Positions 1,186-63,440 of a DNA stretch of 64,000 nt are shown here, in pieces. Position 1 is the stretch's first letter. The number at the start of each line of letters is the position of its first letter. This DNA comes from Narthecium ossifragum. Its lineage: Eukaryota > Streptophyta > Magnoliopsida > Dioscoreales > Nartheciaceae. Where the stretch lies: NCBI GenBank assembly GCA_963920575.1, contig OY986964.1, forward strand, positions 10,290,663 to 10,354,662, read 5' to 3'. The notes under the pieces were generated by a model. That model was given only the letters and a program-made list of their open reading frames with translations. It was not told the DNA's origin and ran no database searches. A program made the position numbers and the translations under genes.

Positions 1186-1545
1186 CGACGGTCGATCGGT
1201 GCATCGACCGTCAAGCGTTGATACGCTCTTTCTGGGCCTGACGGTCGACCGTCGGATCGACCGTCGCATCGTCCGTCAGGCTCTGTCCGGATTTTGGCCT
1301 CCCACGGTCGATGGACCGATCAACTGTGGGCTTCTTCCCTTTTTCATCCCGCCTCACGGTCGACCGTTGGATCGACCGTCGCATCGTCCGTGAGGCTCTG
1401 TCTCGTTTTGGGCTCCCCACGGTCGATGGGCCGATCGACCGTCGCCCATGTGGTTTTCCTCATTTTGGCCTCACGGTCGACCGTGGCATCGACCGTGGCC
1501 TCACAGTCGACCGTCGGATCGACCGTCGCATCGACCGTGGACCCT
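1186..1545. repeat. ACGGTCGACCGT palindrome array in L1 LTR
   Basis: A higher-order tandem repeat of roughly 110 bp. Each unit holds several TCGA-centred palindromes or half-palindromes (GGTCGACC, GGATCGACCGTC, CATCGTCCGT) separated by sequence such as AGGCTCTGTC. It lies about 540 bp downstream of the TATA-like box, so it would be in the transcribed leader. The same palindrome class recurs at 63190-63440 inside an LTR of a different family. Confidence 0.85.
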
Positions 1546-2974
1546 TGAACATGGTTTTCTAGCCTTTCTTGGTTGGATTTGATTTGTGATTAATATCTAA
1601 ACTTGTTAGGAAGCATGTGTGTGGATTTTATGAGGTTTTCAAAGGATTTCTATCGAGTTTGAGGATCGATTCGAATAATTCCCTTTTTGGGCAAATCTAT
1701 GGTTTTGATTGCATTTAATACATGTTGGATTGTTGTTAAATGTTTATTTGATTGCCTAACCATTAGCTAGCTATGAATGTTAGCTAATGAGAAATTGTGG
1801 AACCTTAGCCTGTTGCCGGCGAGTGCCGAGGGCTATTGTATAACTGTGGCCAGTTACCTGCGTGATAATTGTGGAACCTTAGTCTGTCAAGTGCACGAGA
1901 GCACTGAAGACTATTGTATATTTGTATTCATAGCTTTGTTCTAATCTTTGTTTGGTTAGTTTAGATTATCTGTATTTGAGGCCTTTGCTATGCTTACCCT
2001 TTGGCTAGTTGTAAGCTATGCCTAGACCTGTATGATTAATGACATCTTGTTGCATGCTTATATATCTTTATGTGTGCCTGAGCATTGCATGCATCTTGAT
2101 TGCATTAGAGGCATTTGAGGTTAGGCGGGCGATGGGTTGATCGCCGATCCGAGGCTCTCGGGTAGCTCGGATCTAGCCTTATGGCCATGGATGGGTAGTC
2201 AGGTTTAGGGTGTGATTGTATGATCAAATCTCATGTGTTGAGGATTTGCGATAGTTGACTCTGATCAATGGTTGAGGTTTAGAGGTCGTGTTGTCTTCCA
2301 AGGCTAAGTGCTAAGGATGCAATCGATGTGTTCCCGACGTGGTCCCCAGGCAGTGGTATCCCTGCTGGGTAAGGGTGATCCTGCATGGTACTGTTTCCCT
2401 GTTAGTGCTTAGGGTGATCTTGGTAACATATTCAAGAGAGAGGTTCATGACAGGAGCCCTTGGGACATCGATGGGTTATGGGACCCGTGGCATCCGTTAA
2501 ACTTGAGCTGGGAGACAACATTGTTGTTGTTTTCCTCCCTTCTGTGTGCCGTAGAGTAGAACCATACTGAGCTTATCGCTCACTCCTACCTGGGCTGCGT
2601 TTGCAGGTGCAGGCGCCAGTTCTTCTTCAGTAGAGCCGGCAGGATCAGCTTTTGGTGTCGCGACTACATCCAGAGGTGCTTGAGGTTGCACCAGGAAGAT
2701 TGTTGTACTTTGGCAGTTTTGTAAATTGTAAACATCTTTTGAGGACTTTTGGGATTATATGTATTATATCTTTACTTGGAGAATTTTGTATCTAATGTTG
2801 AATAGTACAACTTGATGAATATATGAATTGAATTTCTGTTTCACCTCTGAAATATAATTTGTTTAAGTTTATCTATAATTCCGCATTGTACCGCGCCAGC
2901 TGGAGATGAATAGTGTAGGTTTCCCCTCACGCCTCGGGTCGGATGGGTTTTCTGGGTCGAGGTGTGATAGAAAA

Positions 2975-3511
2975 GATTGGTCCATGAGGTTAAATGATGC
3001 ATTGTGGGCATATAGAACCGCTTACAAGACACCCATAGGGATGTCACCCTATCGAATGGTTTATGGAAGGCACTGTCGCCTACCTATAAAACTCATGGAT
3101 AAGGCCTGGTTGAATATTCTTAAGATTAATTGGTTACCCACCGGCCTTGATGCTCGATTGCTTCAACTAGATGAGTTAGAAGAACTCCGAAATGAGGCTT
3201 ATGACAATGCCCTCATTTATAAGGCCCGGACAAAGGCTTATCATGACAAGTTCCTCATCCGCAAAACGTTCAAAGTTAGTGACAAGGTTTGGCTTTTCAA
3301 TGCCAAGCTTCGACTCTTTCCGGGGAAGCTAAAATCTAGATGGAATGGCCCCTTCCAAGTCACTCAGGTCTTTCCTCATGGGGCTATTGAAATCCATAAT
3401 CCCATGTCCGGTTCTACTTTCAAGGTAAATGGCCAAAGGTTGAAACCTTATGTTGACAATTCCCTCACCGTAGAAGCCACCATGATCTTGAATGAACCGA
3501 ATTATGAGTGA
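2975..3511 (+). CDS. Athila-type integrase, C-terminal fragment of Pol
   Basis: Continues the integrase after the solo LTR, in frame with 1-353. It opens with [20 protein letters not shown] and then [16 protein letters not shown], typical of Athila/Tat integrases. [17 protein letters not shown] follows, then a GPF-type C-terminal module ([20 protein letters not shown]) and a short tail ending at the TGA at 3509-3511. No frameshift or stop is seen. An upstream reading-frame extension (2906-2974) is LTR sequence and is not part of the gene. Downstream lie the env-like ORF and 3' LTR of the same element. Confidence 0.88.
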
Positions 3512-3860
3512 TTGTGCATGCATTGTGTCAAGCTAGAGACGGTAAATCAAGCGTTTGGTGGGAGGCAACCCATCCTTTCCTCGTATTTTTTATGATTGTG
3601 TGTTTGATATTTCTTCTTTACATGATTGATTGTTTTTCCCATTATTTGCATGTTTGATTTTGGTGTGTTTTTGAATTGATCTTTGTTTGAATAATTGTGA
3701 TGTCGAGATGGTATGTTGAATTTGTGTGATGATTGATGAGTTGTCTGAGTTGGAGGGTTTGTATTGTGGTATTTTATCGCCTAAGGAGCTTACTATCCAT
3801 GCTTGAGGTATGTGAGGCTAATTCCCAGGTTTTCAGCCCAGTTTTGCATTTTGGTACACA
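3512..3860 (+). other. Athila untranslated segment between pol and env-like ORF
   Basis: No coding sequence. It contains GGGAGGCAACCCA (about 3560-3572), a motif I associate with the region just after pol in Athila/Tat elements, followed by a T-rich stretch with no recognisable feature. Confidence 0.5.
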
Positions 3861-4430
3861 AAAGATCGATCTTCCCAGAGGAGAAGATCGATCTTCCCAG
3901 AGGAGAAGATCGATCCTTTATGTCCGATTGAATGTAAGCTGGAGCCTGGGGACGAATGATCGATCCTTACATACCTAAAGATCGATCTCCCTTGCGCATT
4001 TATTTGTGACAGGGGGATGGTTTTGAGGTGATCGATCCTTCCATACCTAAAGATCGATCTCTCTTGCGCATTTATTTGTGACAGGGGGATGGTTTTGAGG
4101 TGATCGATCTTTTATCACTGAAAGATTGATCTTTTATGGAGTTTATGCAATTCTCAGAGACAGAAAGATCGATCTTCCTGCATGGATGATCACTCTTTCA
4201 CTTTAGCTGAGAGGCCAAGTGAAGAAGATCGATCTTTCAAGCGGAAAAGATCGATCTTACTTACTTGTACACATCAGCACGACTTAAGCCAGATCCGTTA
4301 TGATGCTGTAACGTGTTAAGAGATCGATCTTTCGCTTGCAAAAGATCGATCTCTTGCGGGGTTTGTTAAAAAAAATATAAATCCAGGAGACCGATTTAGA
4401 GCTCACAAGCCCTAAGATCGATCTCCCCCC
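3861..4430. repeat. AAGATCGATCTT palindrome array upstream of env-like ORF
   Basis: Many copies of AGATCGATCTT/AGATCGATCC with irregular spacing. Part is a clear tandem duplication of an ~87-bp unit (about 3957-4115, each unit containing TTATTTGTGACAGGGGG). The array stops just before the env-like ORF and brackets a TATA box at 4376. The same palindrome fills the 3' LTR of this element at 9941-10271. Confidence 0.88.
4376..4382 (+). promoter_or_regulatory. Candidate internal TATA box before env-like ORF
   Basis: TATAAAT follows an A-run and lies 166 bp before the first ATG of the open frame (4542) and 340 bp before the more likely start (4716). Because it sits at the edge of the palindrome array, as the LTR TATA boxes do, it may be an internal promoter. 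This is inferred from arrangement only. Confidence 0.4.
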
Positions 4431-4715
4431 CCCCTTCTTCCCACAGTCGACTTCGCCGCCGCCTCCGACCATCGAGCCGCCGTTTCTCTGACCATCGAGC
4501 CGCCGTTTCTCCGACCAAAGCGCGTCGCCTCCCACCTCCCAGTGTGTCCACGACCCTTCCCCACCACTCCCTTTCCCTCAATCGACCTCGGCGCCGTCTA
4601 CATTTCTCCCTCACCTCCCACCGGCGGCGTTTCTGTTCCAAAGAGCTCCTCGCCGCCAGCCACGTTCGTTGTTCCGCTTCACCCCAAGCCAACTTCCTCC
4701 TTCTACTTACCTCTG

Positions 4716-5723
4716 ATGGGCCGCAAGCCAACCGCCGCCACCAAAAAGGCCGCCGAGAAGGGAAAGGCCGCCACTTCATCTTCCACACCACCGGCAAGAC
4801 CTCCCTCCGCTCCTTCAACAAGGCCTCCAGCACTTCCGGCACCTCCACGGCAAGCTTCCACCCCTCCAGCTTCACCATCTCCCCCACAAGCTTCTGTCCC
4901 TCCAACTTCTTCGACCCGGCCAGTCAGGACTACGACAGCGCCGTCTACATCATCCACGAGGGCTCTGGCTGCATCACCCACGGCTCCGACAATATCAAAG
5001 AGGAAGAACGCATCTTCATCCAACCCTCGCCAATCCAAGAAGATCAAGAAGAAATCCAGACCTTCCACGGCGCCCACAGTCGTCCGAGGTCTCCATCCAG
5101 ATTGGCAGCGGGAGGTAAACCTTGAATACACATTTGATGTGGAATTCTTCCGCACTGTCGAGCATGCCCAGGATTCCATAGAAATGATCGAAAACCGTGG
5201 TCTTCTTCCTCTTTGTACACCTGAGACCACGGTGCACCCTAGGCTTGTGTACATGTTCTACCAGAACATGACAGCCATCACCTACGGGGATGATCGGGAC
5301 GACGCTGTCGATGGATACTTCCCTTGCCTTGGCTTCACGTCCATGATTGAGGGGGTCGAGGTTACCTTGACGGCCAAGGCCATCTGCGAGGTTTTGGCAG
5401 TTCCGTCGCGCTGCCCCGGTCTTCATAAGCTCCAGCCCGAGGAGTTGTTCCTTCATGACTACGAGGCTCATCTCGTCCTCAACCCGGATCGCATAGGCCA
5501 GGGCAAATTTACACGGGCAGAGCTGTCGCCTTCACTTTGGCTGATCGACGACATTTTGCGCCGCAATGTCTTCCAGAATGGCCATGACCAGTATCGAACT
5601 GGTGGTTGGCTTTGCATATTGTGGTTGTTGGCCAAGGAGTGGGCGGTCAACATACCTCAGAAAATTTTAGAGGACACGGCGCAGTTTTACCGCGGGGAAA
5701 TCAGGGATAAGAAACCGAGCTAA
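4716..5723 (+). CDS. Athila env-like / putative plant transposon protein ORF, N-terminal part
   Basis: Extra ORF located between pol and the 3' LTR, the place where Athila elements carry their env-like gene. The open frame extends up to an ATG at 4542, but the first 58 residues there are Pro/Ser-rich, so I prefer the ATG at 4716 (MGRKPTAATKKAAEK), giving about 335 residues. Order: basic start, a long Pro/Ser/Thr/Ala-rich stretch (residues 15-95), a basic cluster resembling a nuclear localisation signal (KRKN...KKIKKKSR, about 100-115), then a conserved globular domain (LEYTFDVEFF, RGLLPLCTPE, LVYMFYQNM, CLGFTSMIEGVEVTLTAKAI). The globular part resembles the 'putative plant transposon protein' family. 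It is interrupted by TAA at 5721-5723. The molecular function is not known. Confidence 0.65.
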   Translation: MGRKPTAATKKAAEKGKAATSSSTPPARPPSAPSTRPPALPAPPRQASTPPASPSPPQASVPPTSSTRPVRTTTAPSTSSTRALAASPTAPTISKRKNASSSNPRQSKKIKKKSRPSTAPTVVRGLHPDWQREVNLEYTFDVEFFRTVEHAQDSIEMIENRGLLPLCTPETTVHPRLVYMFYQNMTAITYGDDRDDAVDGYFPCLGFTSMIEGVEVTLTAKAICEVLAVPSRCPGLHKLQPEELFLHDYEAHLVLNPDRIGQGKFTRAELSPSLWLIDDILRRNVFQNGHDQYRTGGWLCILWLLAKEWAVNIPQKILEDTAQFYRGEIRDKKPS

Positions 5724-7443: not shown

Positions 7444-7792
7444 TGATGAGAATGCATAATGTTATATTTTTATTCCTTAATATTTAGTCTCCTATGCTTA
7501 TTTAGTTCCTAAATACACTCATTATTCTTATATTTTGATTTAGGATGCAATTGAAGTCCTTAAGTCGAAAAGAAGCTGAAAAGAGTGCATGGATCAACTT
7601 TAAAGATTTATCTGTACCTGTTCATGAAGAACCAGAGGATGTGCCATACATGGTTGGAAAGCTCTTGAAGTCTAGATTCTGGAGAATTTTACGGTTCGTG
7701 ATTCTGAGTTTCCTAGAGGAAGTTACGGCAATTTCAGTACCGATGCGCAGTCTGAATGGCAGAAAGGAAAATAAGCTGGAAGTCCGAGCGAA

Positions 7793-8139
7793 GGTCCGAT
7801 CGATCGGACCTGGCAAAACCGTGACAGAACATGTAGTTTTTGGCTGAATATGGTTCGATCGATCGAACCATCACTCCTACTGAGCCCGATCGATCCGACT
7901 CCTAGAGTTGGATCTATCGGACTCAAAAATACCCAGAGAATGTGGATTTTTATGCATCCGATCGATCCAGCACTTAAAGTTCGATCGATCGGACTTGGGA
8001 ATTAAAGTTGACAGAGCGTATGCTTTCTAAAGGAGCAAAGTTCGATCGATCCATCCATCGATCGGACTCGGGCGTGACTACAAGTTGAAGAGTTTAATGA
8101 GGCCGATCGATCCAGCATCCAAGGTCCGATCGATCGGAC
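7793..8139. repeat. TCCGATCGATCGGA palindrome array in L2 LTR
   Basis: GGTCCGATCGATCGGACC occurs at 7793-7810 and near-copies follow to 8139, including GTTCGATCGATCGAACC and mixed half-sites such as CCGATCGATCCAGCA. Spacers are irregular. The array ends about 60 bp upstream of the TATA box. Confidence 0.85.
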
Positions 8140-8198
8140 TTTCCCAGTAACAAAAATCAACGATTGTGATCTAATCCGAGGGTGGATACAATTGAGGC

Positions 8199-8207
8199 TA
8201 TAAATAG
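8199..8207 (+). promoter_or_regulatory. TATA box of L2 solo LTR
   Basis: TATAAATAG preceded by GAGGC. The same context is found in other L2 copies (40949, 52924 and, reversed, near 63128) and in L3 (10333). Confidence 0.7.
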
Positions 8208-9096
8208 GACTCTTTCTAGGGTTTGAGGGGGGATTCTTGGACACTTTTGGCTGCTCTTTCTCCTCCTTTATATTTTTTCTAGGTTTTATTTTCTTTATTA
8301 GAATCTTTTGAGGATTGTTCTCGATGGCCCTGCGTGGCTAAATCTTGATCCTTGGTCGAGAAGACTGAAACCTCGGAATCAACTAGACTGTGAGATCTAA
8401 TTTATTTTTATTGTTCAGTTTATAGATGAGTATTGAATGTTCTTCTGTGTTTATCTTCATGATTGTCTTGTCTAATTGCTAGGAGCGCTACTAGTTTATT
8501 ATTCATGGTGATCTACCGCTAGGTTTGATATCAAATCCGGAATTGTTTGATCCCTCTAATCTGCGAAGCAACTAGGATCTAATAATTTACTGCTGATCAG
8601 ATCTTGTTAGATCTTAGGAAGAATATTCAACTAGATTAAATGCAACCGCTTGTGCTTGTGTTGTTTAGCTTCATCGATCTCCCTATTCTTAACGCTGCTA
8701 CTAGATTAAATCTACAGCGCTTGTCTTAGGTTGTCTAGTAGTTAGGGTTGATTAGATCGCTTGTTTCTAATTAACTATGATCGAGGAGAGCTTCGAATTG
8801 AATTCGGACGGTGAATATTCATGGTATAAATTGATTGATACTTGCATCTATGATCAGTTATTGGATTCCGATGGTGGATGTTGACTCAGACCAAGGTTTG
8901 TTCTCTTGATTCAACTCATTTCTTCGCTTTAGATTATTTCTTTATTGTTTTTTCTCACGTTTAAAACCCCCCCATCTTTGTTCACTAAGCACAAAACACG
9001 ACTGAACACTCTTCGTGGGATCGACTCGTACTCGCACTACTACATTTATTTTAACGAGTACTGGATTTATTTTTGAGTGCCTGCGACAGCACATCA

Positions 9097-9772: not shown

Positions 9773-9940
9773 TGATAAGACGTGAAAAGTGCACAAATCA
9801 CCCCCTTCAACTTGGCCTCGTTAGTCTCCGAGCAAGGCCTTACTGACAATTATTACCCCATTACAGGTACAAGAGCCCTCAACGAGGATTAGATCAAGTT
9901 CTGAGCTAAAACGAACTCATTCGGGCCAGTTTAGTATGAA

Positions 9941-10271
9941 GAAGATCGATCCTTTATTGACATTAAGAAGAAATCCAGTCGGAACAACAAAGATCGATCT
10001 TCCATCATGAGAAGATCGATCCCTTATGTGCATTTTTCAGTGACAGAGCGCAAGTGTTGGAAGGATCGATCTTTCCCAAGTGCATGATCGATCTTTCACG
10101 GGAAAAAGAGATGACAGAGCGCGACATTCTAGAGGATCGATCCTCGTCTACTAAAAGATCGATCTTCATCGGGGCGCAGCCAGCAGTCAAGAACAAAGAT
10201 CGATCTTCCACGGGACCAACGATCACACGGAAGAGGAAGATCGATCTTCTACCCTATAAAGATCGATCCTT
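9941..10271. repeat. AAGATCGATCTT palindrome array in L3 LTR
   Basis: Repeated AAGATCGATCTTCC, AAGATCGATCC and GGATCGATCTTTC units with irregular spacers, some containing GTGACAGAGCGC. It ends about 60 bp before the TATA box. The palindrome is the same as in the internal array at 3861-4430 of the same element. Confidence 0.88.
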
Positions 10272-10332
10272 TTGTGCCAGCCGAGCAAAATCAATGGTCC
10301 AGATCTAATCTGAGTGGGAGAGGCTTGTGTAC

Positions 10333-10340
10333 TATAAATA
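10333..10340 (+). promoter_or_regulatory. TATA box of L3 LTR
   Basis: TATAAATA in context GTACTATAAATAGACCCC, just after the palindrome array. It is the expected transcription start region of the element. Confidence 0.7.
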
Positions 10341-11396
10341 GACCCCTTTTGGGGGATTTTGGGGGGCTACTTTTAGACTTTTCTCCAGCTTTTCTTCTTT
10401 TAGACTCTTTTTACCCAATTGAGAGGGGGACTTTTTTGAGGAGATCCATGGGAGGAGAGCTTCATCAACCTCCATCTATGGATCCAACCCCCAAGATGAG
10501 TCACTAACTCTTAGCTTAGTGATTTTTATGATGTAATAAGGGTTTCTATTAGGGGTTCTTAGGATGTAGGGCTTTTTGCTACTCTATTGAATGGTTGTAT
10601 GGATTGGAGTTAATTTCTTTATGAATGTGGTGTTATTTTCATTGATGAATGCTTGGATTGCCCTATTGTGCCCTAGATCTAGGTCTCTTGCATGTTAGGG
10701 CTTGGATGGAACCTCTCGTGAGAGGGATTCATGCTAAAACCATGGATTCTCTCATGACGAAGGATTCTAATCCAAGATTGGGCTAGATTGTGGTGCTAGA
10801 ACCACCACCAATCTATTCCTAACCCTCCACCCATCATATCATTGTGATTTTGGCCAGCGAGGTGTTTCCAACACCTCGCTATCACACCTAGATCCATACC
10901 ACCTTAACTCTCTTGCGACGAGTCCTTCTTAATTAGAGGATTTGTTAGCGGCGATCGTAACTCATCCTTCGATCGCCGATTGTTAGGCGATTGCTCTTGC
11001 CAGCGAGGGTTCTTAACCCGAGTGATAGGTGGAACTAGCCATTCGCCTATCAACAATTTGGATTTAACCATTCAATTTGAGGAGACATGCCCTTATCTTA
11101 GGAAGACCTATTAGAACCCTTGTTTTTGATTAATGATCCCTCGGCCTCTCTTTATATCTTAGTACCTTTTTGCATTAATTTTGGTCTAGTCTAGTTAAAA
11201 ACCCAAATCTAAATCTTTTCCTCCAACTTCTTGGTAGACAATTATGCTTAGTATGTCATTTCAACTCTAGTTTCTTCCCTGCGGATCAACTCGGACTCAC
11301 CACTAGCTACCCCATAGGTAGTTAGTTAGGAGTTTGATTATAAATTTCTAATTTTGATCGGGCGCGTTAAGCCGTGACATTTTTCACGTCCCATCA

Positions 11397-20799: not shown

Positions 20800-21099
20800 T
20801 ATGAGGACCTGTCCCTCTACTTCCGGGTCGACCGTCTGGGTCGGGCCCGTGGCTCGCTTGCTTGTTTCACGTCGAGCGCGTGATCTGGTGGATCGTATTA
20901 TTTCTTGGACCGCAAGGGCAATTTGGTAAATTATGCATTGTCGGTTTGTTTTACACCCGCATGTGCACACACTGACTGTATATGTGGTAATGGTTGTTTA
21001 GAATAGTTAGGTGAACCCGGGATCGAAATATCCGGGTTTGGGCTTGTGTTTTAGCTCAAGTCTAGGTTTCTGCACAAAAATATTGATATTTTCTTGCTA

Positions 21100-21755
21100 A
21101 GAAGATCGATCATTTGGTGCCAGAAAGTCAAGTTCCTCGTCATGAAGAATTGATTCATAAGTCGGTTCGTCCGTCTATAAAACGGACGCAACCCCTTCTA
21201 TTTTTCTCATTTTGAAATCCGCCATTCTTGAGCTTAGATCTGGTGAGATTTTGGAGGAGATTGAGGACGATCTTAGGCTCAGCAGCGTGGATTGAAGCTG
21301 CTTTAGTCTAGGTAGGAATGCTACCTACTTGTCTTTCCGATTTTTTGTACGTTTTGAGCTTGTCTGTGCTTGTTTTGAGTAGATCTCCTTGCATGCTCTT
21401 TGGGTTTTAGTAAAAGTATCAGTTCTTGACTCGTGGTCTTTCGGACTACTAGATCACAGAGTTTTGTGGGATTTGGTAGTGTTTTCCGACGGTATATTTT
21501 CTTCTCCGGTTCGCCGGAGAACCCATGAAGATTGATATTCCTTGAGGAAGGATTGATCATTCTTGAGGCGTCATGCCTGACCCGTGCATGATTGATCTTT
21601 CGGTAGAAGAAGATCGATCTTTTGCTTGGCGACATGGACGGGGTCCTTGGTCACGAAGGTGATCGATCTTCAGGAAGATCGATCCTTGTTGGCTTGACAG
21701 GGATGGAACTCCCTGTTTGCTAAGAAGATCGATCCTTTCTTATCGATCCTCTTGG
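21100..21755. repeat. AAGATCGATCTT-type palindromes on both sides of the TATA box (L1)
   Basis: One palindrome (GAAGATCGATCATTTGG, about 21100) lies upstream of the TATA box. A denser cluster (21530-21755) lies downstream with AAGATCGATCTTTTG, GTGATCGATCTTC, AGGAAGATCGATCCTTG and decayed GATTGATCTT forms. Confidence 0.75.
21168..21188 (+). promoter_or_regulatory. TATA box inside a short inverted repeat (L1)
   Basis: CGTCCG, then TCTATAAAA, then CGGACG: the TATA box forms the loop of a 6-bp inverted repeat. The same layout occurs at 47378 and 60241 in other L1 copies. Confidence 0.65.
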
Positions 21756-22340
21756 TAACAGGGAGGTGTTTTCGTTGGCTTTTGCCCGTGGGACTTTGTA
21801 TGTGCGGTTTTCTTTACCGCTTTATATCTTGTACATACCTTTAAGCATGTTAGCCCCATAATGAGGGGTAGTGGTGAACTGGGAGAGTGACGAATCCCGA
21901 GATGTGTAGATAGCATGTTGTACTATTAGCCGTGGTTGTTGGGGTTGCTTTCCGTAGCATGAAGTTCTTTTGTGGACTGGCTACAGTTGGTGGGGTTACC
22001 ACTACAGCAGTTCTTTGGCCTGTATTACCTATTCACCACCCCGGGCCGGCAGGGTGCCGAGCCCAGACCATGTTCTTTATCATCACATATGTTGCATACT
22101 TATCTGTTTTCCTGCGTATGTTCATAACATACATCTGGTTGTGCATTAGTTGCATAAGGTTAGGGCATGGGCGATCTGCGGTATCTTCGTCCCGAGAGCT
22201 TGGAAGCTCGGATTAGCCTTAGGACTGGGCCTAGGTTGCTTGGTCTAGGTTTGAATGGTTGTGTTCAGTCGAATTCGATGATAGGCCTATATGACTTGAA
22301 CACTTATTGATCAATGATTTAGAGGTGAGATCGTGTCGGC

Positions 22341-23888
22341 TGATGAGTGCATGAAAATACACTCTGAACATGACTAAGAGCAGCTTATTTGCTTAGTTTT
22401 CATGATTAATATAGATGATTTCGTCCGTAGATGTTGCTTCACAAAGTTATTTGTATTATGCAGGAAATTGAAGCAAATATGGGTCTTTAACGCCAAACCT
22501 GTACCTTTTCGGAAGGAACCAGATGAAGTGCCATATATGGTTGAAAAGCTATGGAAGTCTAGTTTCCGAAAGTTTTTACGGTTTGTGATTTGGAGTTTCC
22601 TAGAGGAAGTTACGGCAATATTAGTACCAATGGCGCAGTCTGGATGGCTAAACAGTAAATACTCAGGAAAGACGGATCGATCATGTTCCCTACAAGGATT
22701 GATCCTTTTATGCAGATAGACCTGACAGAACACACACTTTTTGAATGATCACAGAAGGATCAATCCTCCTTTCACTCGAGAATATTGAGGAGAAGGATCG
22801 ATCTTTCTCCTATAGAAGGATCGATCCTACTCGGGTGACCCAGGTTACGGAGAATATTGAGGAGAAGGATCGATCCTACTCGGGTGACCCAGGTTACGGA
22901 GAAATAGAGAAGAGGAAGATCGATCCTTGGCCTTCAGAGGATCGATCCTTTGTCGGGCGGAACTGAATATGAGCCATCAGATTTAATCCAAAAGCTGAAA
23001 TAAAAGCTAGGGTTTCATGTCCATATATAAGGGGAGTTCTTGGACGTTTTTGGGGGCTCTTTCTTGAACGTTTTCTAAGGGAAGAATATGAAGATGTCTC
23101 CATCCATGGCCGAGTAATCCGCGGGCATGGCGGACGGATGATTTAGCGATGACTAGGGTTTCTTCTCCAACAATGGTTCATAGTTTTAATCTTTATTGTT
23201 AAACTCTTTTTTATATATTGAATCTTCAAAGATTGTTTTCAGATTATAGATTCCTATGTGGATGATTAATATTATAAATCCAGTCATGCTTCTTTCATGA
23301 TCTTATAATCCCATAGTTTTATCTATTGTTTACCTACTTTATCTCGTAAAATCTTTGCTATGCATTGCCGATTGTGAGAGTTGGTATTGTGTATTCTTAG
23401 AGATCTGGTTAGATAGAGTTAGGGCTTTGTCCCGATGAACTTTTGTTGTGCATTGCCTGTAGTGACAGCCGGTATCGTATATTCTTAGGTTTGGGTTGGA
23501 TGAAGTTAGAACTATAATACAGAAGAATCAATCATAGGAAGAGACATTTATATATTTTGTTAGGTTTATAGTTCCATATCTTCCGGTTAAGGTGATTGGG
23601 ATGTGAATCCCTTAACTGAGTATTATATGAACCATTGAGAAGAGAAGAACTTAAATCCGAGTGAAGTGATTCCTGAAGCCTAGCCTCATCCAAATCTTGA
23701 TTTCTTTCGTTAACTTTATCTCATCATTACATCTACGATCTACTTTCTTAACTTTAACGTTCTTGATTGTTCTCGATACATTGTTATTTGTGTTTCTGGA
23801 TCTTTCCTGCTTGTCTCTCTGTGGGTTCGACCTCTCTTATGCTGTACTGCACCGCGACCGCTGTGCGTGACACATTTGAGCGACATCA
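22341..23888 (+). mobile_element. Solo LTR of family L2 nested in the L1 LTR
   Basis: Begins TGATGAGTGCATGAAAATAC and ends TTGAGCGACATCA. Flanks TCGGC (22336-22340) and TCTAC (23889-23893) match at only three of five positions, suggesting an old or mutated target duplication. It carries the palindrome array, TATATAA at 23024 and a leader with CCATGGCCGAGTAATCCGCGG that is nearly identical, in reverse, to 62990-63040. The host L1 sequence continues on both sides. Confidence 0.82.
22674..22955. repeat. AGGATCGATCCT palindrome array in L2 LTR
   Basis: Repeated AAGGATCGATCCT/AAGGATCGATCTTTC units. Includes an exact ~55-bp duplication with GATCGATCCTACTCGGGTG, GACCCAGGTTACGG (about 22817-22915). 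Located 70-350 bp upstream of the TATA box. Confidence 0.85.
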
Positions 23889-31691: not shown

Positions 31692-31694
31692 GCT

Positions 31695-34401: not shown

Positions 34402-35040
34402 AGACCGAGGACAGTGTTCGAGGTCCATAGTTTCTTAGGCCTGGCGGGTTACTACAGGCGGTTCGTGTGGGACTTCTCCAGAGTTGCCGGACCGTTGACC
34501 AGACTGACACAAAAGGCCGTCCCGTTCGTGTGGGATGATGCTTGTGAGCGAGCCTTCGTGGAGCTGAGGACCAGGTTGACCAGTGCGCCGGTGCTGATCG
34601 TCCCCGAGCGAGGTGTTGGTTACAATGTCTACTGCGACGCCAGCGGTAAGGGTTTGGGGTGTGTCCTCATGCTGGAGAATCACGTAGTTTCCTATGGTTC
34701 TCGTCAGCTGAAGAACCATGAGAGGAACTATCCGACTCACGACTTGGAGCTAGTAGCGGTGGTCTTCGCCCTGAAGACCTAGAGTCACTACCTCTATGGC
34801 GAGAAGTTCTCTGTCTTCTCGGACCATAAGAGCTTGAGGCACGTTTTCACCCAACGTGACCTCAACCTGAGGCAGCAACGCTGGATGGAGCTACTGGAGG
34901 ATTACGACTTTGAGTTGCATTACCATCCTGGTAAGCCAAACGTCGTAGCAGACACGCTGAGCAGACAGGTGAGAGACACCAGAGCAGCAGTTGCTGGGTT
35001 GTCAGCACGGCAGTGGCAGTCTCTAAAGACGGCGGGCTAG
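34402..35040 (+). pseudogene. Chromovirus RT connection and RNase H domain
   Basis: Begins [17 protein letters not shown], then the RNase H fold with [14 protein letters not shown] (first catalytic Asp), [20 protein letters not shown] (catalytic Glu region) and [16 protein letters not shown] (final Asp). TAG at 34780-34782 replaces an expected Trp before SHYLYG, and TAG at 35038-35040 follows. RNase H removes the RNA strand during reverse transcription. Confidence 0.88.
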
Positions 35041-36563: not shown

Positions 36564-36611
36564 TGTAGCTGTTTTGTTGTTTCCGAGCCCTACCTTTATC
36601 GAATCTCGGGA

Positions 36612-36637
36612 CGAAATTTCTTTTAAGGGTATTAGGA
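36612..36637 (+). promoter_or_regulatory. Polypurine tract region of the chromovirus
   Basis: ACGAAATTTCTTTTAAGGGT directly precedes the 3' LTR. It is the characteristic Tekay/Del pre-LTR motif and contains the plus-strand primer. In this copy the tract is short (AAGGGTATTAGGA). Confidence 0.75.
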
Positions 36638-38957
36638 TGTGAGAACCTGTCCCTCTACCCCTGTGGCTCATTATAGACCGCAAGGGCAATTTGGTAAAAT
36701 TGTGCCTTGTTGGTTTGTTTCACACCCGCATGTGCACACACTGACCTTGTTTGTGTTAGTGCTTGATTAGAATGGTTTGGTGAACCCGAGATCAGAAGAT
36801 CCCAGTTCGGGCGCGCAGAAGCCCGTTTTTGGGCTGCTGGCGGCCCGTGAGCGATCGATCGTTCCTTGGAGCGATCGATCGGACTCGGGTCGGTGGCTTT
36901 TCTACTTCGAGAGGACGGCCGCCGTTGGTCGTCACTCTCTCCTGTCAGAAGGGGAGGACTTTCCCTCCCCTCCTTTCTTCTTTCCCCTCTTTCCCCGGCT
37001 TTCCCCTTCCCTTTTCCCTCCTTTTCTTCCTCTTCTCCTCCTCCTTCTTCTCGTTTGTTCTTCCTTCATCTTTCTTCTTCCCGGTTCTGTTTTTCCCATG
37101 TTTTCCAGCAGCCACCTTCTTCTACTCCGTTCTCCCTCCTCCGGCCACCATTTTGGGTGTTCCAAGGCTCGTTGGAACCGTGGCGGTGTGAGGAAGATCA
37201 CTGGTGTGGTTTGGAGCTCCGTTGGTGACCAGTTCGCGGGGAATCAGCCGAGGAGTGTGTTTCCGGTAGGTTTCTACCTACTGTTGTTGTTTTTGGGTTT
37301 TCTCTAGATCTAGCCGTTGGATCTTGCTGATCTTTGTGTTGTTGGATGCATCTTGCCTAGTATAATTTCTGTTATAAGTTTCATAAACTTTGGTTGAGAT
37401 TTAAGTAGGATTTATGCATGTTTAATCTCGGATTTTCCGGTTTCTGCTGTTCTTGAAGAACAGCCGGTTTTCGACGAGTTTTCCGATCAGTACGTTCATG
37501 TTCTTGGGTTGTGATGAACATAAGAGTTGTAGATCTTTGAATCTACTCTCAAACCCAACTGATTTCATAATTTTCCAATGTTCTTACGATTTCTTATGAA
37601 TTTATTATTGGAGGGCTGCGTTGCAGCAAGTAATTGGTAAGTTAGTTTGATTAGCAGTTTTGATTAATGTTTTTCCGTTAATCCAACCATGGGATGATTA
37701 TGGATTTTGGATATGTTTATCCCGCAATGTTGATCTCCTGATGGCTAAGTTGGATCTTGAATCCGACGTCGTTTGGATGTTGGATCGACGGGATCAATTA
37801 GCCTCTAAGTAGAGGTTTGGGTGTTTTGAATAAAATATTATATGTTCGGATTATAATATTATATTTTTTACTGTCCATCATCGTTTTCGGGATTGTTTCC
37901 CATTGCAGGAGTCCGCGGTTGATGGTCGCGGTACCATCGTAATGCCGGGACCCGCTACGGATCGGCTGGCAGCGGCTGGTAGTACCGCTGCAGCGATCCG
38001 GTTGACTTATATGATGCCTTATCATATTGTTGCATGTCTATCTACTGTTTGTGTATGTCCATAGCATGCATTATTGATTTGTGCATTAGTTGCATGGTTA
38101 GGGCGTGGGTGATCTGTGGGTCGCCGACCCGAGGCTGGAAGCTCGGACTTAGCCCTAGGACCAGGGTTGGGTAGTTTGGACCCGGTTGGAATGGTGGTGT
38201 CCAGTTGATTTCGATGATAGGCTTAGATGACTGGTACACTTGGTTCTTGATGATTGTAGAGGTCGTGTCGGCCTCGAGTCGGATGCTGAGGTGTAGCCGG
38301 TGTTCCACTGTGTTGACTCTTGGGTAGAGAGTTGCCTACTCAGCGGTGCTTTTTCCCGCCTGCAGTGTCGGGTCCTGCATGTGAGTAAGCAGTGTTTCTT
38401 TCTGCTTACTGAGTGTTGTTCCTGGGCCTCAGGGACACGCGGTGGGGTTATGGGACCCCTGTATACACTCAAGTCTTACTTGAGGGCGACACTGTTGCGT
38501 TTCCCTCTTCCTTATGTGTTTCGTAGTGTAGAACTCTACTGAGCTTAGTAACTCACTCCTACCCGGGCTGCGTTTTGCAGGTGCAGGCGTCAGTTCTTCT
38601 TCTGTGGCCCCTACCGGGCAGTTGGTCGGCGGTGCGGCGGCGCCAGGTGGAGTTTGAGAGGTGGCGATCTTTACAGCTTTTTACCCTTTTGTTACTTAGC
38701 CTCCTACGGGAGTATAAATGTTGTATTTGGATTTTCCCCTCTCTGAGGATATGTATATTAAATCTTTTTGGGTTTGTAATCTATGATTTGATGTTTCATT
38801 AAATTAATGTCTTTTAATTGAGGGTGCTTTTGGTGAACTGTTAGGGAGACCAATAGGTTAGAGAGAACCCTCATCAGCTTTTTCCGCGTTTCGTTAGGTT
38901 CCGATTCGCGTCGCCCGGCCCGGTTGGGCTTGGGCTTTCGCGGGTCGGGGCGCGACA
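36638..38957 (+). mobile_element. 3' LTR of the chromovirus
   Basis: TGTGAGAACCTGTCCC to GGTCGGGGCGCGACA. The GAGCGATCGATCG palindrome at 36850 pairs with a second intact one (GAGCGATCGATCGG, about 36870) that has decayed to GCGATCCATCGG in the 5' LTR. Confidence 0.92.
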
Positions 38958-38962
38958 GTGTG

Positions 38963-40227: not shown

Positions 40228-40596
40228 TGTCGAGTGCATGAAAGTACACTCTGAACAGCCTTATCACCAGCCCAATTGCTAGATTCTACATCCTTAATTA
40301 GCCTATTTAATATTGTTTTACAGTTATATGTTGCTTCACAAAGCTTGTTGAAAAATCTAGGAAATAGGAGTCAAAAGGAACAAAGAAGGCAAAAAGATTA
40401 CATGAGTCAACTTCAAAGATTAAATTGTACCTATCCAAAAGAACCAGATGATATTCCATAGATTATTAGAAAGCTATGAAAGTCTAGTTTCTGGATAATT
40501 TTACGGTTCATGATTTCGAGTTTTCTAGATGAAGTTACGGCCTTTTTAATGCCAATGGTGCAGTGTTGATAAAGAAGCTGAAATTTTAGAAATAAA

Positions 40597-40890
40597 AGAT
40601 CAATCTTTTTTGCATTAAAAGATCGATCTTCTGTGCGCCAGAAATGACATAGAGCAATATTTGAGTCTAAGAAGATCGATCTTATCTCTAAGAATATCGA
40701 TATCTTCTTAAACTGAAGTGATATTTGAGACAGAAAAGATCGATCTTCTTCCTAACAAGAACGATCTCTTCTGAGTCTGAACCAGACAGAGAGTACCTTT
40801 TGAAAAGATCGATCTTCCTCGGGCGCAAGCAACTATACGGGATGAAAAGATCGATCTTATTTTCATCCCTAAAAGATCAATCTTTTGTTT
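40597..40890. repeat. AAAGATCGATCTT palindrome array in truncated L2 LTR
   Basis: Repeats of AAAGATCGATCTTC and decayed AAGATCAATCTTTT forms, ending about 60 bp before TATAAATAG. Confidence 0.82.
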
Positions 40891-46488: not shown

Positions 46489-47286
46489 TGTTGGATTAAG
46501 GCTTATATAAAAGCCCAAAACACATATTAAATAAGTGTGGGCTAAGCCTAGAATAGTTGAATCAAATGGGCCAAGAGAAAGCCCATTTGTTAATAACCAA
46601 ATGGAGGAGCCCATATGGTGTAGTAAAATGTTTAGTCCCACATTGGTTATCGAGAAAACATTTCACTAGTTTATATAGTGTTTGGAGCTTCTATGCTTTG
46701 AACACTTGAGTGGACTAGAGAGAGGCACCCACACAAGTGCATTGTCGCTCGCCGGCCGGTCGTGCGTCGTGTCTTTCTATTTTGCTACGTGGTTATCTAG
46801 TGGAATCAGGTCGAATACACTAGACCGATTGGGCTGAATCAGCTTGACTTTTCAGCTTCCAAGTCGGTTATAGTTGGGTTGAGTCGGCTTGACTTTTCAG
46901 CTTCCAAGTCGGTTACAGCTAAGTTGTCTGAGTCTAAATGACTAATTTACTCACAATAATGGGATGAGTCAGTTATGACTCTTGGGCTACCCATGACTAG
47001 GCAATTATGGGTGATGTGGAAACCCATGTCAAGACATGTCCCTCTACTCCTTGGTCGACCGTCTGGGTCGGGCCCGTGGCTCACATGCTTATTTCGCATC
47101 GAGCGCTCTTGGGTTGCAAGGGCAATTTGGTAAATTGTGTTTTATCGGTTTATTTCACACCCCGCGTATGCACACACTGATCGCGTTTGTGGTAATGTTT
47201 GCTTAGAACGGTTAGTTGGACCAGGGATCGAAAGATCCGGGCTTGGACTTCTGTTCTAGCCCAAGTCTAGCTTTCTGCACCAAAAT

Positions 47287-47960
47287 GATCGATCATTCCT
47301 TGTTAGAAGGATCGATCATTTAGTGTCAGAAAGTCAAACTGCATCGTCATGAAGGATCGATCATTCATAAGTCGGTTCGTCCGTCTATAAAACGGATGCG
47401 AGCCCCTCCTTTAATCTCTTTTGAAATCAGCTGTTCATGAGCTCAGATCCGGCTGGATTTGGAAGGGGTTGAGGGCGATCTTTGGCTCAGCGACTGGGAT
47501 TGAAGCTACTCTAGTCTAGGTAGGGATGCTACCTACTTGTCTTTCCGGTTTCTGTGAGTTTTGAGCTTGCCTGTGTTTTCTTTTAGTAGATCTCCTTGCA
47601 TGCTTGTTGGTTTTCAGTGCAAGTATCGGTTTTGGACTCGTGGTCCTTCGTACTACCAAATTTCAAGGTTTTGTGAGATTTGATAGGGTTTCCTGACGGT
47701 ATTTCTCGTCGGCCGGTCGCCGAAGAACCCAACATGATCGATCTTTCTTGCAAAGGATCGATCATTCTTGAGCGTCATGCCTGGCCCATGCATGATCGAT
47801 CTTCTGGTAGAAAGAAGATTGATATTTTACTTGACGGCATGGACGGGGTCCCTGGTCATGAAACTGATCGATCTTCCCATCGATCCTTTTTGGCTTGATA
47901 GCGACGGAACCTTCCCATCACTAGGAAGATCGATCATTTCCCTTCGAAATGATCGATCCT
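47287..47960. repeat. GATCGATCATT/GATCGATCTT palindromes around the TATA box (L1)
   Basis: Upstream cluster 47287-47372 (ATGATCGATCATTCC, AAGGATCGATCATT) and downstream cluster 47735-47960 (CATGATCGATCTTTC, AAATGATCGATCCTTTG and others), mirroring the arrangement at 21100-21755. Confidence 0.8.
47378..47398 (+). promoter_or_regulatory. TATA box inside a short inverted repeat (L1)
   Basis: CGTCCG, TCTATAAAA, CGGATG: the inverted repeat seen at 21168 with one mutated base in the right arm. Confidence 0.6.
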
Positions 47961-49137
47961 TTGTGCGACAGGGAGGTGTTTTCAATGGCTTTTGCTCGTG
48001 GGGCTTCGTATGTACTGGTTTTCTTTATAGCTTTATACATTGTAAATATGTTTAAGCATGTTTGCCCCATAATGAGGGGTAGTGGTGAACCAAGAGAGTG
48101 ATGACTCCCGGGATGTGTAGATAGCATGTTGTACTGTTAGTCGTGTTTGCCGGGGTTGCTTTCCGTAACATGCTATTCCTTTGTGGACTGGTTGCAGTTG
48201 ATGGGGTTACCACTGCAGCAGTTCCTTGGCCCGTATTACCTGTTCAGCACCCCGGACCATGTTTATTATCGTCACATATGTTGCATGCTTATCTGCTTTC
48301 CTGTGTATGTTCATAGCATGCATCTGGTTGTGCATTAGTTGCATAAGGTTAGGGCGTGAGTGATTTGTGGTATCGCCGTCCCGAGGGCTTGGAAGCTCGG
48401 ATTAGCCTTAGCACCGTGGCTGGGTAGCTTGGTCCATGTTTGAATGGTTGTGTTCAGTCGAATTCGATGATAGGCCTAGATGACTTGAACACTTGTTAAT
48501 CGATGATTTAGAAGTCGTGTCGATCTCGAGCCGGGTTTTGAGGTGTAGCCGGTGTTCGGTTTTCTTGTCTCTTGAGTAGAGGGTGTGCCTACTCAGCTGT
48601 GTTATCTGCCCACCTGACAGTGCTAGTTTCCTGCTTGTGAGATGGCAGTGTTGGTTTTCTGCCTCACTGAGGGTGACCCAGTATGTGACCAGCTCGGCTG
48701 GAATACCATGACTGAGGCCCCTCAAGGACACGCGGTAGGGTTATGGGACTCTGTGTACACCTAGGCCTTGCTAGAGGGTGACACTATTGTGTTTCCCTCT
48801 TTCTTCAGTGAGTCGTAGTGTAGTTTCCCTACTTAGCTTAGTTGCTCATTCCTACCCGAGCTGTGTTTTACAGGTGCAGGCGTTAGCTCCTCTTCGGTGG
48901 CCCCTACCAGGAAATTGGTTGACGGCGCGGCAGCGCCTGGCAGAGTTTGAGGAGCGATGATTTTTTTGTCTTCAGAACCCCTATATAGTTGGCCTCCTAC
49001 GGGAGTATATAAATGTTTGTACTTGATTTCCCCTTGTAGAGGTTTCGTAGATTTGTATCACTTTGGATTTGAAATCTTTAATCTTGAGGTTTCTGTAAAT
49101 TTTAGAATTGCTAATTAAGGGTGTTTGATGAATGCTT

Positions 49138-52487: not shown

Positions 52488-52738
52488 TTAATTAGCCTCT
52501 TTAGTATTGTTTTTACACTTATATGATGCTTCACAAAGCTATTTGAAAAATGCAGGGAATAGGAGTCAAAAGGAGCAAAGAAAGTGAAAAGATAACATGG
52601 ATCAAGTTCAAAGATTAACCTGTACCTGTTCAGGAAGAACCAAATGATGTTCCATGTATGATTGGAAAGCTCTAAAAGTCCAGTTTCTGGAGAATTTTAT
52701 CGTTTGAGATTCTGAGTTACATAAAGGAAGTTACCAAA

Positions 52739-52870
52739 AGATTGATCTCTTATGAAGCTGAAGGAAACAGAGAGTATCTTTTCAAAAGATTGATCTTCTC
52801 CTTTAAAAAGATCGATCTTCCTCGAGTGCAGGCAACTACACGGGATGAAAAGATCGATCTTTGTTTGACG
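52739..52870. repeat. AAAAGATCGATCTT palindrome array in L2 LTR
   Basis: Four to five sites, some decayed (AAAGATTGATCTTC), ending about 55 bp before the TATA box. Sparser than in other copies. Confidence 0.75.
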
Positions 52871-59911: not shown

Positions 59912-60124
59912 GTAAGTGTGAGGACCTGTCCCTCTATTCATGTAGCTCGTTGTTGACCACAAGGGCAATTTGGTAAATTGCACCTTGTCGGTTTGTTTCA
60001 CACCCGCGCGTTCACACACTGACCTTGATTGTGTATGTGTTTGAATAGCATAGTTAGGTGGACCCGGGGTCGAAAGATCCGGAATTGGACTTGAGTTTAA
60101 CCCAATTCTGTTTCCCTGTGCAGG

Positions 60125-60235
60125 TTGGATCGATCCAAACTCCACTTTGGATCGATCCAGGATGCACTAGGGAGTGGTGGCTGCCAGTGGAGTTTGGATC
60201 GATCCAAGGTGGAGTTTGAATCGATCCAACTAGAA
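60125..60235. repeat. TTGGATCGATCCAA palindromes upstream of TATA (L1)
   Basis: Four sites with spacers such as ACTCCACTT: GTTGGATCGATCCAAAC, TTTGGATCGATCCAGG, TTTGGATCGATCCAAGG and a decayed TTGAATCGATCCAAC. Confidence 0.88.
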
Positions 60236-60240
60236 CTGGA

Positions 60241-60262: not shown

Positions 60263-60611
60263 GATGCTTCCTTTCTCTTTTCTTTTTCGATTCCGCTGCG
60301 ATTGGGCTCAGATCCGGCGAAATCTTGAGAGGATTTAGGAAGATCCAAGGCTTGGCTTCGTGGATTGAAGTAGCTCTTGTCGAGGTAGGGTTTCTACCTA
60401 CAGATTTGGTTGGGTTTTTCTCGTGTTCTTCATCGTTTTCGCCGAATACGGGTTTGTTTTGAGTAGATCTCCATGTATAAGTGATGGTTTCCGGTTTTGA
60501 AGCCATGAGTAGCTTTGTGAGCATCAGATCTACCAACCCACAAGGTTTGGTGAAGTTTGGTTTGGTTTTTCGACCGTGATCGCTGTCGAAAGTTGGCCGG
60601 AGGGCCGGTTG

Positions 60612-60840
60612 GGATCGATCCAATTGGATATTGGATCGATCCAAGTTGCACTCAAGATGGTCTGTTCACTGGTGGAAGTCCATGGGTATGTTGGATCGAT
60701 CCAGTGTTTCCCAGGAACAGTGTTTGAGGGTAACAGAGAATGGTTTTCTTGGTTTTTCTGAGTCGGATCGATCCAAGGGCAAGTTAGATCGATCCGAGGG
60801 CAAGTCGGATCGATCCATGGGTATGTTGGATCGATCTAAC
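60612..60840. repeat. GGATCGATCC palindromes downstream of TATA (L1)
   Basis: Sites read GGGATCGATCCAATTGG, TTGGATCGATCCAAG, TTGGATCGATCCAGTG, and then a run at about 20-bp spacing (CGGATCGATCCAAGGGC, TAGATCGATCCGAGGGC, CGGATCGATCCATGGG, TGGATCGATCTAACG). Confidence 0.88.
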
Positions 60841-62219: not shown

Positions 62220-62250
62220 GTACTCATTTTTCAGATCCTCATGGATGTGG
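62220..62250 (-). pseudogene. Copia Gag middle fragment
   Basis: Thirty bases between two solo LTRs. On the minus strand they read HLHEDLKNEY, bridging the Gag parts at 63776 and 59911. Confidence 0.75.
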
Positions 62251-63127
62251 TGATATCACTCAAATGTGTCACGCATAGCGGTCGCGGTGCAGTACAGCAT
62301 AAGAGAGGTCAAACCCACAGAGAGACAAACAGGAAAGATCCAGAAACACAGATAACAATGTATTGAAAACAATCAAGAGCGTAAAAATTAAGAAAATAGA
62401 TCGGAGATGTAATGGTAAAATAAAGGTAACAAAGAAAATCAGGATTTGGTTAGGGCTAGGCTTCAGGACTCACTTCACTCGGATTTAGGTTCTTCTTTTC
62501 TCAATGGTTCATCTAATACTCAGTTAAGGAATTCACATCCCAATCACCCTAACCGGAAGATATGGAATTATGAATCTAACAAAATATATAAATGTCTCCT
62601 CCTACGATTGATTCTTCCTTATTATAGTTCTAACTTCATCCAACCCAAACCTAAGAATATATGATACCGGCTGTCACTACAGGCAACATATAGCAAAACT
62701 TTATCGGGACAAAGCCCTAACTCTATCTAACTAGATCTCTAAGAACACACAATACCAACTCTCACAATCGGCAATGCATAGCAAAGATTTCACGAGATAA
62801 AGTAGGTAAACAATAGGTAAAACTATGGGATTATAAGATCATGAAAGAAGCATGACTGGATTTATAATATTAATCATCCACATAGAGATCCATGATCTGA
62901 AAATAATCTTTGAAGATTCAATACATATAAAAGAGTTTAACAATAAAGATTAAAACTATGAACCATGATGAAGAAGAAACCCTAATCCTCGCTAGATCAT
63001 CCGTCCACCATGCCCGCGGATTACTCGGCCATGGATGGAGATGTCTTCATCTTCTTCCCTTCAAAAACGTCCATAAGGAGCCTCCAAAAATGTCCAAGAA
63101 GTCCCCTTTTGGCTTACCCTAACTTTC

Positions 63128-63138
63128 CTATTTATAGG
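63128..63138 (-). promoter_or_regulatory. TATA box of the minus-strand L2 LTR
   Basis: The plus strand CTATTTATAGG corresponds to CCTATAAATAG in element sense, just downstream of the palindrome array. Confidence 0.65.
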
Positions 63139-63189
63139 GTCCAAAAATTAGCAAACCCGGGTTAAGTTTAAACCAGTTATACGCCCCTG

Positions 63190-63440
63190 ACTGATCTGGC
63201 GGTCGACCGTGAGGTGCACAATTTATTTTAACAAGCTGCGGTCGATTTTCGCATCGACTCTGCGAAGTATTTTCCTTGACAGAGGCTGACAGTCGATGCC
63301 ACGGTCGACCGTGAGCATCTTACGGTCGATCGTGAGGATTTTCGAGCTTGACGGTCGACCGTGAGGATTTGACGGTCGACCGTGAGGATTTTTGAGCGCG
63401 ACTGTCGACCGTGAGATTTGACGGTCGACCGTCACTATTC
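63190..63440. repeat. GACGGTCGACCGTGAGG palindrome array in L2 LTR
   Basis: Repeats of GACGGTCGACCGTGAGG with short spacers (ATTT, ATTTTCGAGCTT), several at 17-25 bp spacing. Same GGTCGACC core as the L1 copy at 1186-1545, and unlike the GATCGATC arrays of the other L2 copies. Confidence 0.88.

Follow-up and report, generated by a model that had tools for sequence, protein, structure and literature searches.

High-copy palindromes close to the promoters of plant long terminal repeat (LTR) retrotransposons have been described for the Sireviruses. In the accessible text of PMC2829016, palindromic RM boxes are reported for 13 of these elements, where 8-32 copies lie upstream of the TATA box, extra copies precede ENV and the regions form CpG islands; no common factor is identified there for the palindromes, and the RM is termed Sirevirus-specific, classic retrotransposons being without it. 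Here we describe arrays of palindromes centred on TCGA in a 64,000-nucleotide window of the Narthecium ossifragum genome (assembly GCA_963920575.1, contig OY986964.1, positions 10,290,663 to 10,354,662 of the forward strand; coordinates below are those of the window). Like the RM boxes, they are high-copy, CpG-rich palindromes with element-specific arms (a point qualified below) and occur a short distance upstream of LTR TATA boxes. Unlike the RM boxes, they are hosted not by Ty1/copia elements but by two groups of Ty3/Gypsy-type LTRs, one of which (group A) is assigned from PF20167 and layout. Measured against that text, the arrays are of a known kind, palindromic RM boxes, and what is new are the Ty3/Gypsy-type hosts, a main core of another sequence, a rule for the spacing of sites and an accompanying motif. 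We read them as candidate composite U3 enhancers recognized by a homodimeric, probably host-encoded protein, and give this reading a probability of about 0.5.

The U3 enhancer boxes of Tnt1 are repeated, partly symmetric U3 activators that vary between subfamilies; they differ from the present arrays in belonging to a copia element and in their sequences. The symmetry of Tnt1 box I is mentioned in PMC2829016. In ONSEN, a heat-responsive LTR site recruits the host transcription factor HSFA2 (PMC3907296), which is the kind of relationship proposed here, but the site is another one, and the ONSEN promoter is described in the available part of that work as lacking symmetric methylation sites, whereas intact sites in the window are centred on CpG. 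Variation from one related element to the next also marks the targets of VANC proteins in VANDAL transposons, which are short motifs within tandem repeats of noncoding sequence, as far as the consulted portions of PMC5735166 and PMC10398659 describe them. However, VANDALs are not LTR elements, their motif YAGTATTAY is non-palindromic, and a cognate encoded protein is known there while none has been identified here. According to the same portion of PMC5735166, the VANC21 and VANC6 motifs are both non-palindromic, and VANC6 is found in AT9TSD1, an unrelated element, as well. In the literature searched, mainly titles and abstract openings together with PMC11963269 and PMC10794571, no palindromic arrays were reported for Athila, Tekay or chromovirus LTRs, which does not establish their absence from print.

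Palindrome arrays in two groups of LTRs

Judged from transposon domains, the window is plant DNA dense with nested LTR retrotransposons. Fourteen LTR intervals, some with approximate ends, were set via self-BLAST, shared ends and target-site duplications (TSDs). Group A consists of A07, A22, A40, A52, A63m (minus strand) and the 3' LTR ATH and has an Athila-like appearance; group B/C consists of B20, B29, B36, B47, B59, C0, C24 and C28, with TGAGGACC or a relative as common start. We provisionally call the A LTRs and the element at 0-11 kb Athila-like on the strength of PF20167, layout and features of the LTR and polypurine tract (PPT), and lineage names throughout lean in the same way on domains and such features.

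TCGA-centred palindromes of at least 10 bp occur 54 times in the window, compared with a mean of 3.9 and a maximum of 10 in 200 local dinucleotide shuffles. For lengths of at least 12 bp the count is 39 (mean 1.0, maximum 5) and for at least 14 bp it is 17 (mean 0.28, maximum 2). The pattern noticed in the initial annotation is real, with counts far above those of the shuffles. No other of the 256 palindromic 8-mers, for which the median is 1, is as frequent as GATCGATC, found 73 times; GGTCGACC occurs 11 times. Together these are 84 exact cores, 68 of them in the 14 LTR intervals, 14 in an internal array at 3862-4426 and two elsewhere. A looser scan within the arrays, allowing at most one core mismatch, gave 101 sites. 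On this basis 8 of the 14 LTRs hold at least eight sites, the minimum for an element with the Sirevirus RM (C0 10, A07 10, ATH 10, A22 8, A40 8, B20 8, B47 10, B59 11), while A63m with 7 and A52 with 4 stay below. The thirteen arrays are as follows.

1186..1545, plus strand: C0 array; ACGGTCGACCGT type, 10 sites (at most one core mismatch), CTGTC in two gaps
3862..4426, plus strand: internal array (ATHint) upstream of the Transposase_32 open reading frame (ORF); 15 sites, mostly AA-GATC, 7 pairs at 22 bp, 72-bp tandem units
7790..8142, plus strand: A07 array; 10 sites, CC-GATC the commonest half-site (10/20), three pairs at 23 bp
9940..10272, plus strand: ATH LTR array (ATHltr); 10 sites, AA-GATC and some AG-GATC, 4 pairs at 22 bp, TGACAG in two gaps, TATA at 10333
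21545..21752, plus strand: second array of B20; 7 sites with mixed half-sites
22672..22951, plus strand: A22 array; AG-GATC type, 8 sites, 3 pairs at 22-23 bp
40594..40886, plus strand: A40 array; AA-GATC type, 8 sites, TATA at 40949
47283..47366, plus strand: first array of B47; AT/AG-GATC, 3 sites, TATA at 47386
47732..47962, plus strand: second array of B47; 7 sites with mixed half-sites, downstream of TATA
52736..52863, plus strand: A52 array; AA-GATC type, 4 sites, TATA at 52924
60124..60230, plus strand: first array of B59; TG-GATC type, 4 sites as two 22-bp pairs, TATA-like sequence at 60248
60609..60840, plus strand: second array of B59; 7 sites, TG-GATC in 8/14 half-sites, four steps of 21 bp
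63197..63434, minus strand: A63m array; ACGGTCGACCGT type, 7 sites, TATA at 63136

The positions first given for the arrays hold to within about ten bases, but the starts at 40597, 52739, 22674, 1186 and 9941 are degenerate copies, with perfect ones further on. The observed/expected ratio of CpG exceeds the 0.78 of the window in 12 of the 13 arrays. Eleven arrays are built on the GATCGATC core, and those of C0 and A63m are of the ACGGTCGACCGT type, whose central 10 bp are CGGTCGACCG. Table 3 of PMC2829016 gives CGGTCGACCG for a grapevine Sirevirus and the TCGA-centred ACAATCGATTGT for Tnd-1. The earlier statement that Sirevirus palindromes have a different sequence therefore holds only in part. 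Conversely, the CGG-CCG signature of the RM is confined to the ACGGTCGACCGT arrays and absent from the eleven GATCGATC arrays, although Tnd-1 is an exception to it as well in the accessible text. An assignment of the arrays to the Sirevirus RM proper was rejected, since two defining features, this signature and the Sirevirus host, fail.

All six Athila-like LTRs and the first arrays of B47 and B59 have their sites upstream of TATA. Group A arrays have a conserved stretch of U3 on one side and the TATA box on the other; counted from where the last site begins, TATA follows at a nearly constant distance (A07 73, ATH 74, A22 86, A40 76 and A52 74 bp; 74 bp by coordinates for A63m). The first arrays of B47 and B59 end 33 and 31 bp ahead of TATA, and a single site in B20 (21102) precedes its TATA box by 74 bp. 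The proposal that the arrays are always close to the TATA box does not hold. The second arrays of B20, B47 and B59 begin about 350-375 bp downstream of it, another difference from the Sirevirus RM, the array at 3862-4426 is internal, and the C0 array is situated well downstream of the C0 U3. The internal array has a TATA-like sequence at 4376, 34 bp after a site, with one further site (4414) beyond. In this one element it precedes a sense ORF, which would parallel the extra RM copies upstream of ENV if that ORF were ENV-like. Note that the TATA boxes of B20, B47 and B59 are enclosed in an inverted repeat, GTCCGTC-TATAAA-ACGGAC and relatives (21169-21187, 47379-47397, 60241-60262). By eye, C0 also shows a small group of sites at 574-640, built around TCGATCGA (CTTTCGATCGAAAG, with the following site some 21 bp further) and preceding a TATTTAAG sequence; a degenerate relative of this group was seen in C28 at 28200-28260.

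Spacing, co-motif and half-sites

A property that does not figure in the initial annotation is the spacing of neighbouring sites, which was analysed for the internal array and for the LTRs other than B29, B36, C24 and C28. In clusters of three or more exact cores, 24 of 68 gaps measure 20-23 bp, while random placement gave a mean of 4.96 and a maximum of 14 in 5000 trials. With at most one mismatch, 33 of 87 consecutive gaps fall into this range. The preference is pronounced in the Athila-like arrays (23/55 gaps, simulated mean 5.6, maximum 13) and weaker in the B/C arrays, where the observed 10/32 (simulated 3.5, maximum 11) was equalled in some trials. Since 27 of the 33 pairs have distinct spacers, with 24 of 71 distinct gaps at 20-23 bp, the excess cannot be merely a product of tandem copying. 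The remaining gaps concentrate near 41-43, 47-50, 59-61 and 72 bp. A periodicity of about 10 bp is stronger than under random placement (0.54, simulated maximum 0.37 in 1000 trials); it is only rough, and strict 10.5-bp phasing of the whole array was rejected.

Outside the palindromes, the most enriched 6-mers in the arrays are GACAGA (11 occurrences, 0.64 expected) and CTGTCA/TGACAG (10, 0.59 expected). TGACAG resembles a site of TALE-homeodomain proteins. GACAG or CTGTC is found in 12 of 26 gaps of 47-64 bp, in one of 11 gaps of 38-45 bp, in one of five longer gaps and in none of the 45 gaps of up to 31 bp. In the Athila-like and C0 arrays, to which the offset test was confined (B20, B47 and B59 were left out), there are 14 such matches where 2.5 are expected; 11 of these 14, two of which are tandem copies, lie 19-26 bp from the centre of a flanking palindrome, an interval picked post hoc for which chance gives 3.9 and at most 10. 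When ten gap units, A63m left out, were aligned, 10 of 45 pairs reached z >3, some of them across differing arms, with the motif itself contributing to the score. Neither a 20-23 bp pair step nor TGACAG was found for the Sirevirus RM in the accessible part of PMC2829016.

Sites were picked by their core, so that all statements about the arms are conditional on it. The outer dinucleotide of the half-site tracks the array, with a mutual information of 1.73 bits as compared with 0.55 (maximum 0.70) after shuffling. The arms had been described as uniform within a copy. However, the top dinucleotide accounts for at least 75% of half-sites in only five of the 13 arrays (first array of B59 8/8, A40 15/16, A63m 13/14, A52 7/8, A22 12/16) and for 36-67% in the other eight (C0 13/20, ATHint 19/30, ATHltr 13/20, A07 10/20, second array of B20 6/14, first and second arrays of B47 4/6 and 5/14, second array of B59 8/14). 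Nor are the arms specific to an element, because the same ones recur in unrelated LTR groups: AA is commonest in ATH, A40, A52, the internal array and also B20 (6/14 half-sites), AC in A63m and C0. Within single sites the two arms agree in 47 of 101 cases, which is what the pool of each array predicts (49.9 when shuffled within arrays, 17.0 across arrays), and an excess of within-site arm symmetry was accordingly rejected. The preference thus applies to half-sites across a whole array. It would be expected from homodimer subunits that each read their own half, and also from duplication. Among 100 sites (the single-site array of B20 left out) there are 24 core mismatches. Nine of these affect the central CpG by C-to-T or G-to-A, while equal likelihood of all changes would predict 2. 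This suggests methylation of silent copies.

One pair of Athila-like LTRs shows discordant relationships on the two sides of the TATA box. Starting at about TATA, A22 and A63m share 90.8% identity across 868 columns, compared with 71.1% across 149 columns of the U3 preceding the array, and their arms differ; the closest U3 match of A22 is A07 (83.4%). The BLAST alignment of the shared part begins 5 bp (A22) and 28 bp (A63m) past the start of TATA, near the expected transcription start. In this one case the pattern suggests an exchange of U3. It could result from strand transfer from one RNA to another while reverse transcription is under way, an established mechanism.

Host elements and neighbouring features

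The LTRs and ORFs that carry or adjoin the arrays are as follows.

354..2969, plus strand: C0, a B/C-group solo LTR with TSD GAAAA, identified by BLAST to B LTRs and by its ends
4716..5723, plus strand (sense): ORF matching PF20167 Transposase_32 at 37.4 bits, under the curated cut-off of 45
7444..9096, plus strand: A07, Athila-like solo LTR; TSD TGGGC
9773..11200, plus strand: ATH, 3' LTR starting after a PPT-like tract (near 9756) and aligning to A LTRs; the end coordinate is a placeholder
20802..22340, plus strand: first part of the interrupted LTR B20, which resumes at 23893-24212 and 27362-27766
22341..23888, plus strand: A22, solo LTR of Athila-like type within B20; TCGGC and TCTAC on its two sides form an imperfect TSD
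29396..38957, plus strand: complete Ty3/Gypsy element; LTRs B29 and B36 are 93% identical, TSD GTGTG
59917-62214, plus strand: B59, solo LTR; TSD GTAAG
62251-63775, minus strand: A63m, solo LTR; TSD CCACA

Directly upstream of C0 there is a match to the rve integrase core, and by eye the interrupted gene resumes downstream, where the ORF at 2879-3511 gave no Pfam match. The internal array and the ATH LTR likely belong to one element, because A07 between them is a nested solo LTR with its own TSD. A second PPT-like tract (6915-6945) precedes that near 9756; it possibly records an earlier boundary and leaves some doubt about a single element. The Pfam scan covered 27 of the 208 stop-to-stop ORFs of at least 75 amino acids. 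In the complete B element, six of the eight ORFs scanned are gag-pol (RVP_2, RVT_1, RNase H, Integrase_H2C2, SH3_Tf2-1) and two are without a match; as regards a chromovirus or Tekay-like affiliation of the B/C LTRs, the pol domains are of Ty3/Gypsy type and no chromodomain was found among these eight. Near the Athila-like LTR, an ORF on the minus strand (11341-11937) matches the Plant Mobile Domain PF10536 at 31.1 bits, under the cut-off of 34.9. The end of B47 is tandemly repeated at 49138-49437 (unit 118 bp, 2.6 copies). Decayed copia remnants occupy 56011-58901 on the minus strand (RVT_2 and rve under the cut-off, retroviral SH3-like, weak gag_pre-integrs). At 41628-41800, ACCCG/CGGGT repeats occur in both orientations and include a 20-bp palindrome around TTTATAAA; we presume a likeness to the subterminal region of hAT-type elements. 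Two IMG/VR contigs, L001 and L002, were considered as relatives and rejected: they have 58-59% G+C and four and three scattered TCGA-centred palindromes without an array, and their agreement with a 21-base pattern looks fortuitous.

A candidate host factor and its rivals

Of the functions proposed at the outset, binding sites for a dimeric regulator remain the best reading of the arrays, and it has gained support from the symmetric core, the array-wide half-site preference, the 20-23 bp excess and the co-motif. In the mechanism we envisage, a homodimer would bind each 12-bp palindrome by reading NNGATC (or NNGGTC) half-sites that meet at TCGA, and two dimers would bind cooperatively to palindromes spaced by about 22 bp, roughly two turns of the helix. 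A partner protein may occupy TGACAG in Athila-like arrays, at some 22 bp from the nearest palindrome. Placed at a set distance ahead of TATA, modules of this kind would drive the element, that is, activate rather than repress it, and in one Athila-like element a similar array precedes the extra ORF. Growth of arrays by tandem duplication would give like arms within an array, the outer two bases would select a member of a related, most likely host-encoded, family of transcription factors, and U3 together with its array could be exchanged between LTRs through strand transfer in reverse transcription. A host origin is the more likely one because both LTR groups share arms and the scanned ORFs of the complete B element are gag-pol or nothing.

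Several observations speak against this reading. The placement of arrays at LTRs does not extend to C24 and C28, which are without an exact core, and hardly to B29 with one and B36 with two. Of 13 tested periods, the strongest were 9.8 bp for consecutive gaps and 10.2 bp for all pairs, and 10.5 bp was weaker in both. In B20, TGACAG occurs at other offsets (14 and 30 bp), outside the offset test. As arm symmetry within sites equals that of the array pool, it provides no independent evidence of selection on individual sites. Rapid change of U3 is an alternative that could mimic exchange between A22 and A63m, and a host factor alone does not account for the arm differences between related LTRs. 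Finally, one limited literature search brought up no plant factor known to recognize a strict TCGA-centred palindrome.

The rival that survives best, though we consider it unlikely, is a regulator or anti-silencing protein encoded by the elements themselves, comparable to VANC: a protein from the extra ORF of the Athila-like element, or from another element, would bind its own LTR and internal arrays, with site and protein co-evolving. In line with this, AA-GATC is the commonest half-site in both the internal array (19/30) and the downstream LTR array (13/20), arms change between related LTRs, and tandem growth recalls the VANC targets as described in the consulted portion of PMC5735166. The VANDAL analogy of the initial annotation nevertheless found no support. 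Quite apart from their lack of symmetry, the VANC motifs YAGTATTAY and AGTTGT(C/A)C are present in none of the 13 arrays, with two and four matches elsewhere in the window, and arms are common to unrelated LTR groups. No match among the 27 of 208 ORFs scanned with Pfam suggested a VANC-like protein. The extra ORF yielded only PF20167, under the cut-off; a protein search with it scored 7995 candidates, none at E<=0.001, and a single-sequence fold was uninformative (pLDDT 39). Furthermore, the B/C LTRs share arms even though the scanned ORFs of the complete B element encode gag-pol domains or nothing recognizable, and the PPT-like tract near 6930 clouds the single-element origin of internal array and LTR.

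We regard as less probable still that the arrays act through nucleic-acid structure, identical palindromes pairing in U3 RNA to form hairpins that are cut into siRNAs or tolerated as such. In the two arrays tried, RNA folds were indeed stronger than in 100 shuffles each (z -6.9 for A40, -4.5 for ATH), and maize Sireviruses show an excess of small RNAs over palindromic regions (Bousios 2016, as cited in the available part of PMC10760457). However, good folding is expected from any array of identical palindromes, and clear hairpin complementarity between pair members was rejected: across the 33 pairs at 20-23 bp, facing arms were complementary in 17 cases for the outer arms (17.1 expected) and 21 for the inner ones (17.0 expected, p 0.07). 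Core and spacing are kept all the same. Folding may be a consequence and not a cause. Improbable, and last in rank, is a neutral by-product, in which slippage would have multiplied palindromes that arose by chance and recent duplication would keep the CpG-rich arrays visible: tandem arrays with periods of 22, 72, 49, 50 and 21 bp fit it and duplication would account for array homogeneity, but the TCGA core and the 20-23 bp step recur with differing arms and spacers in two LTR groups, and the Athila-like LTRs add the co-motif and a near-constant distance to TATA.

Returning to composite enhancers read by a host homodimer, we tentatively propose, with distinctly less confidence than in that reading itself, that unrelated retrotransposon lineages of this genome may share one cis-regulatory language. 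It would consist of TCGA pairs at 22 bp, TGACAG in one lineage, outer-base 'dialects' for paralogous dimeric factors and U3 cassettes swapped near the U3/R boundary. If this is true, cassette swapping would let elements change their regulator while keeping the transcribed leader. For the questions of what switches on plant LTR retrotransposons and how their promoters stay ahead of silencing, the 22-bp pair rule and the partner motif form a searchable signature and could serve as a probe for pulling out the protein. Should the rule hold in copia as well as gypsy elements, it would point to one family of host factors exploited by many LTR elements.

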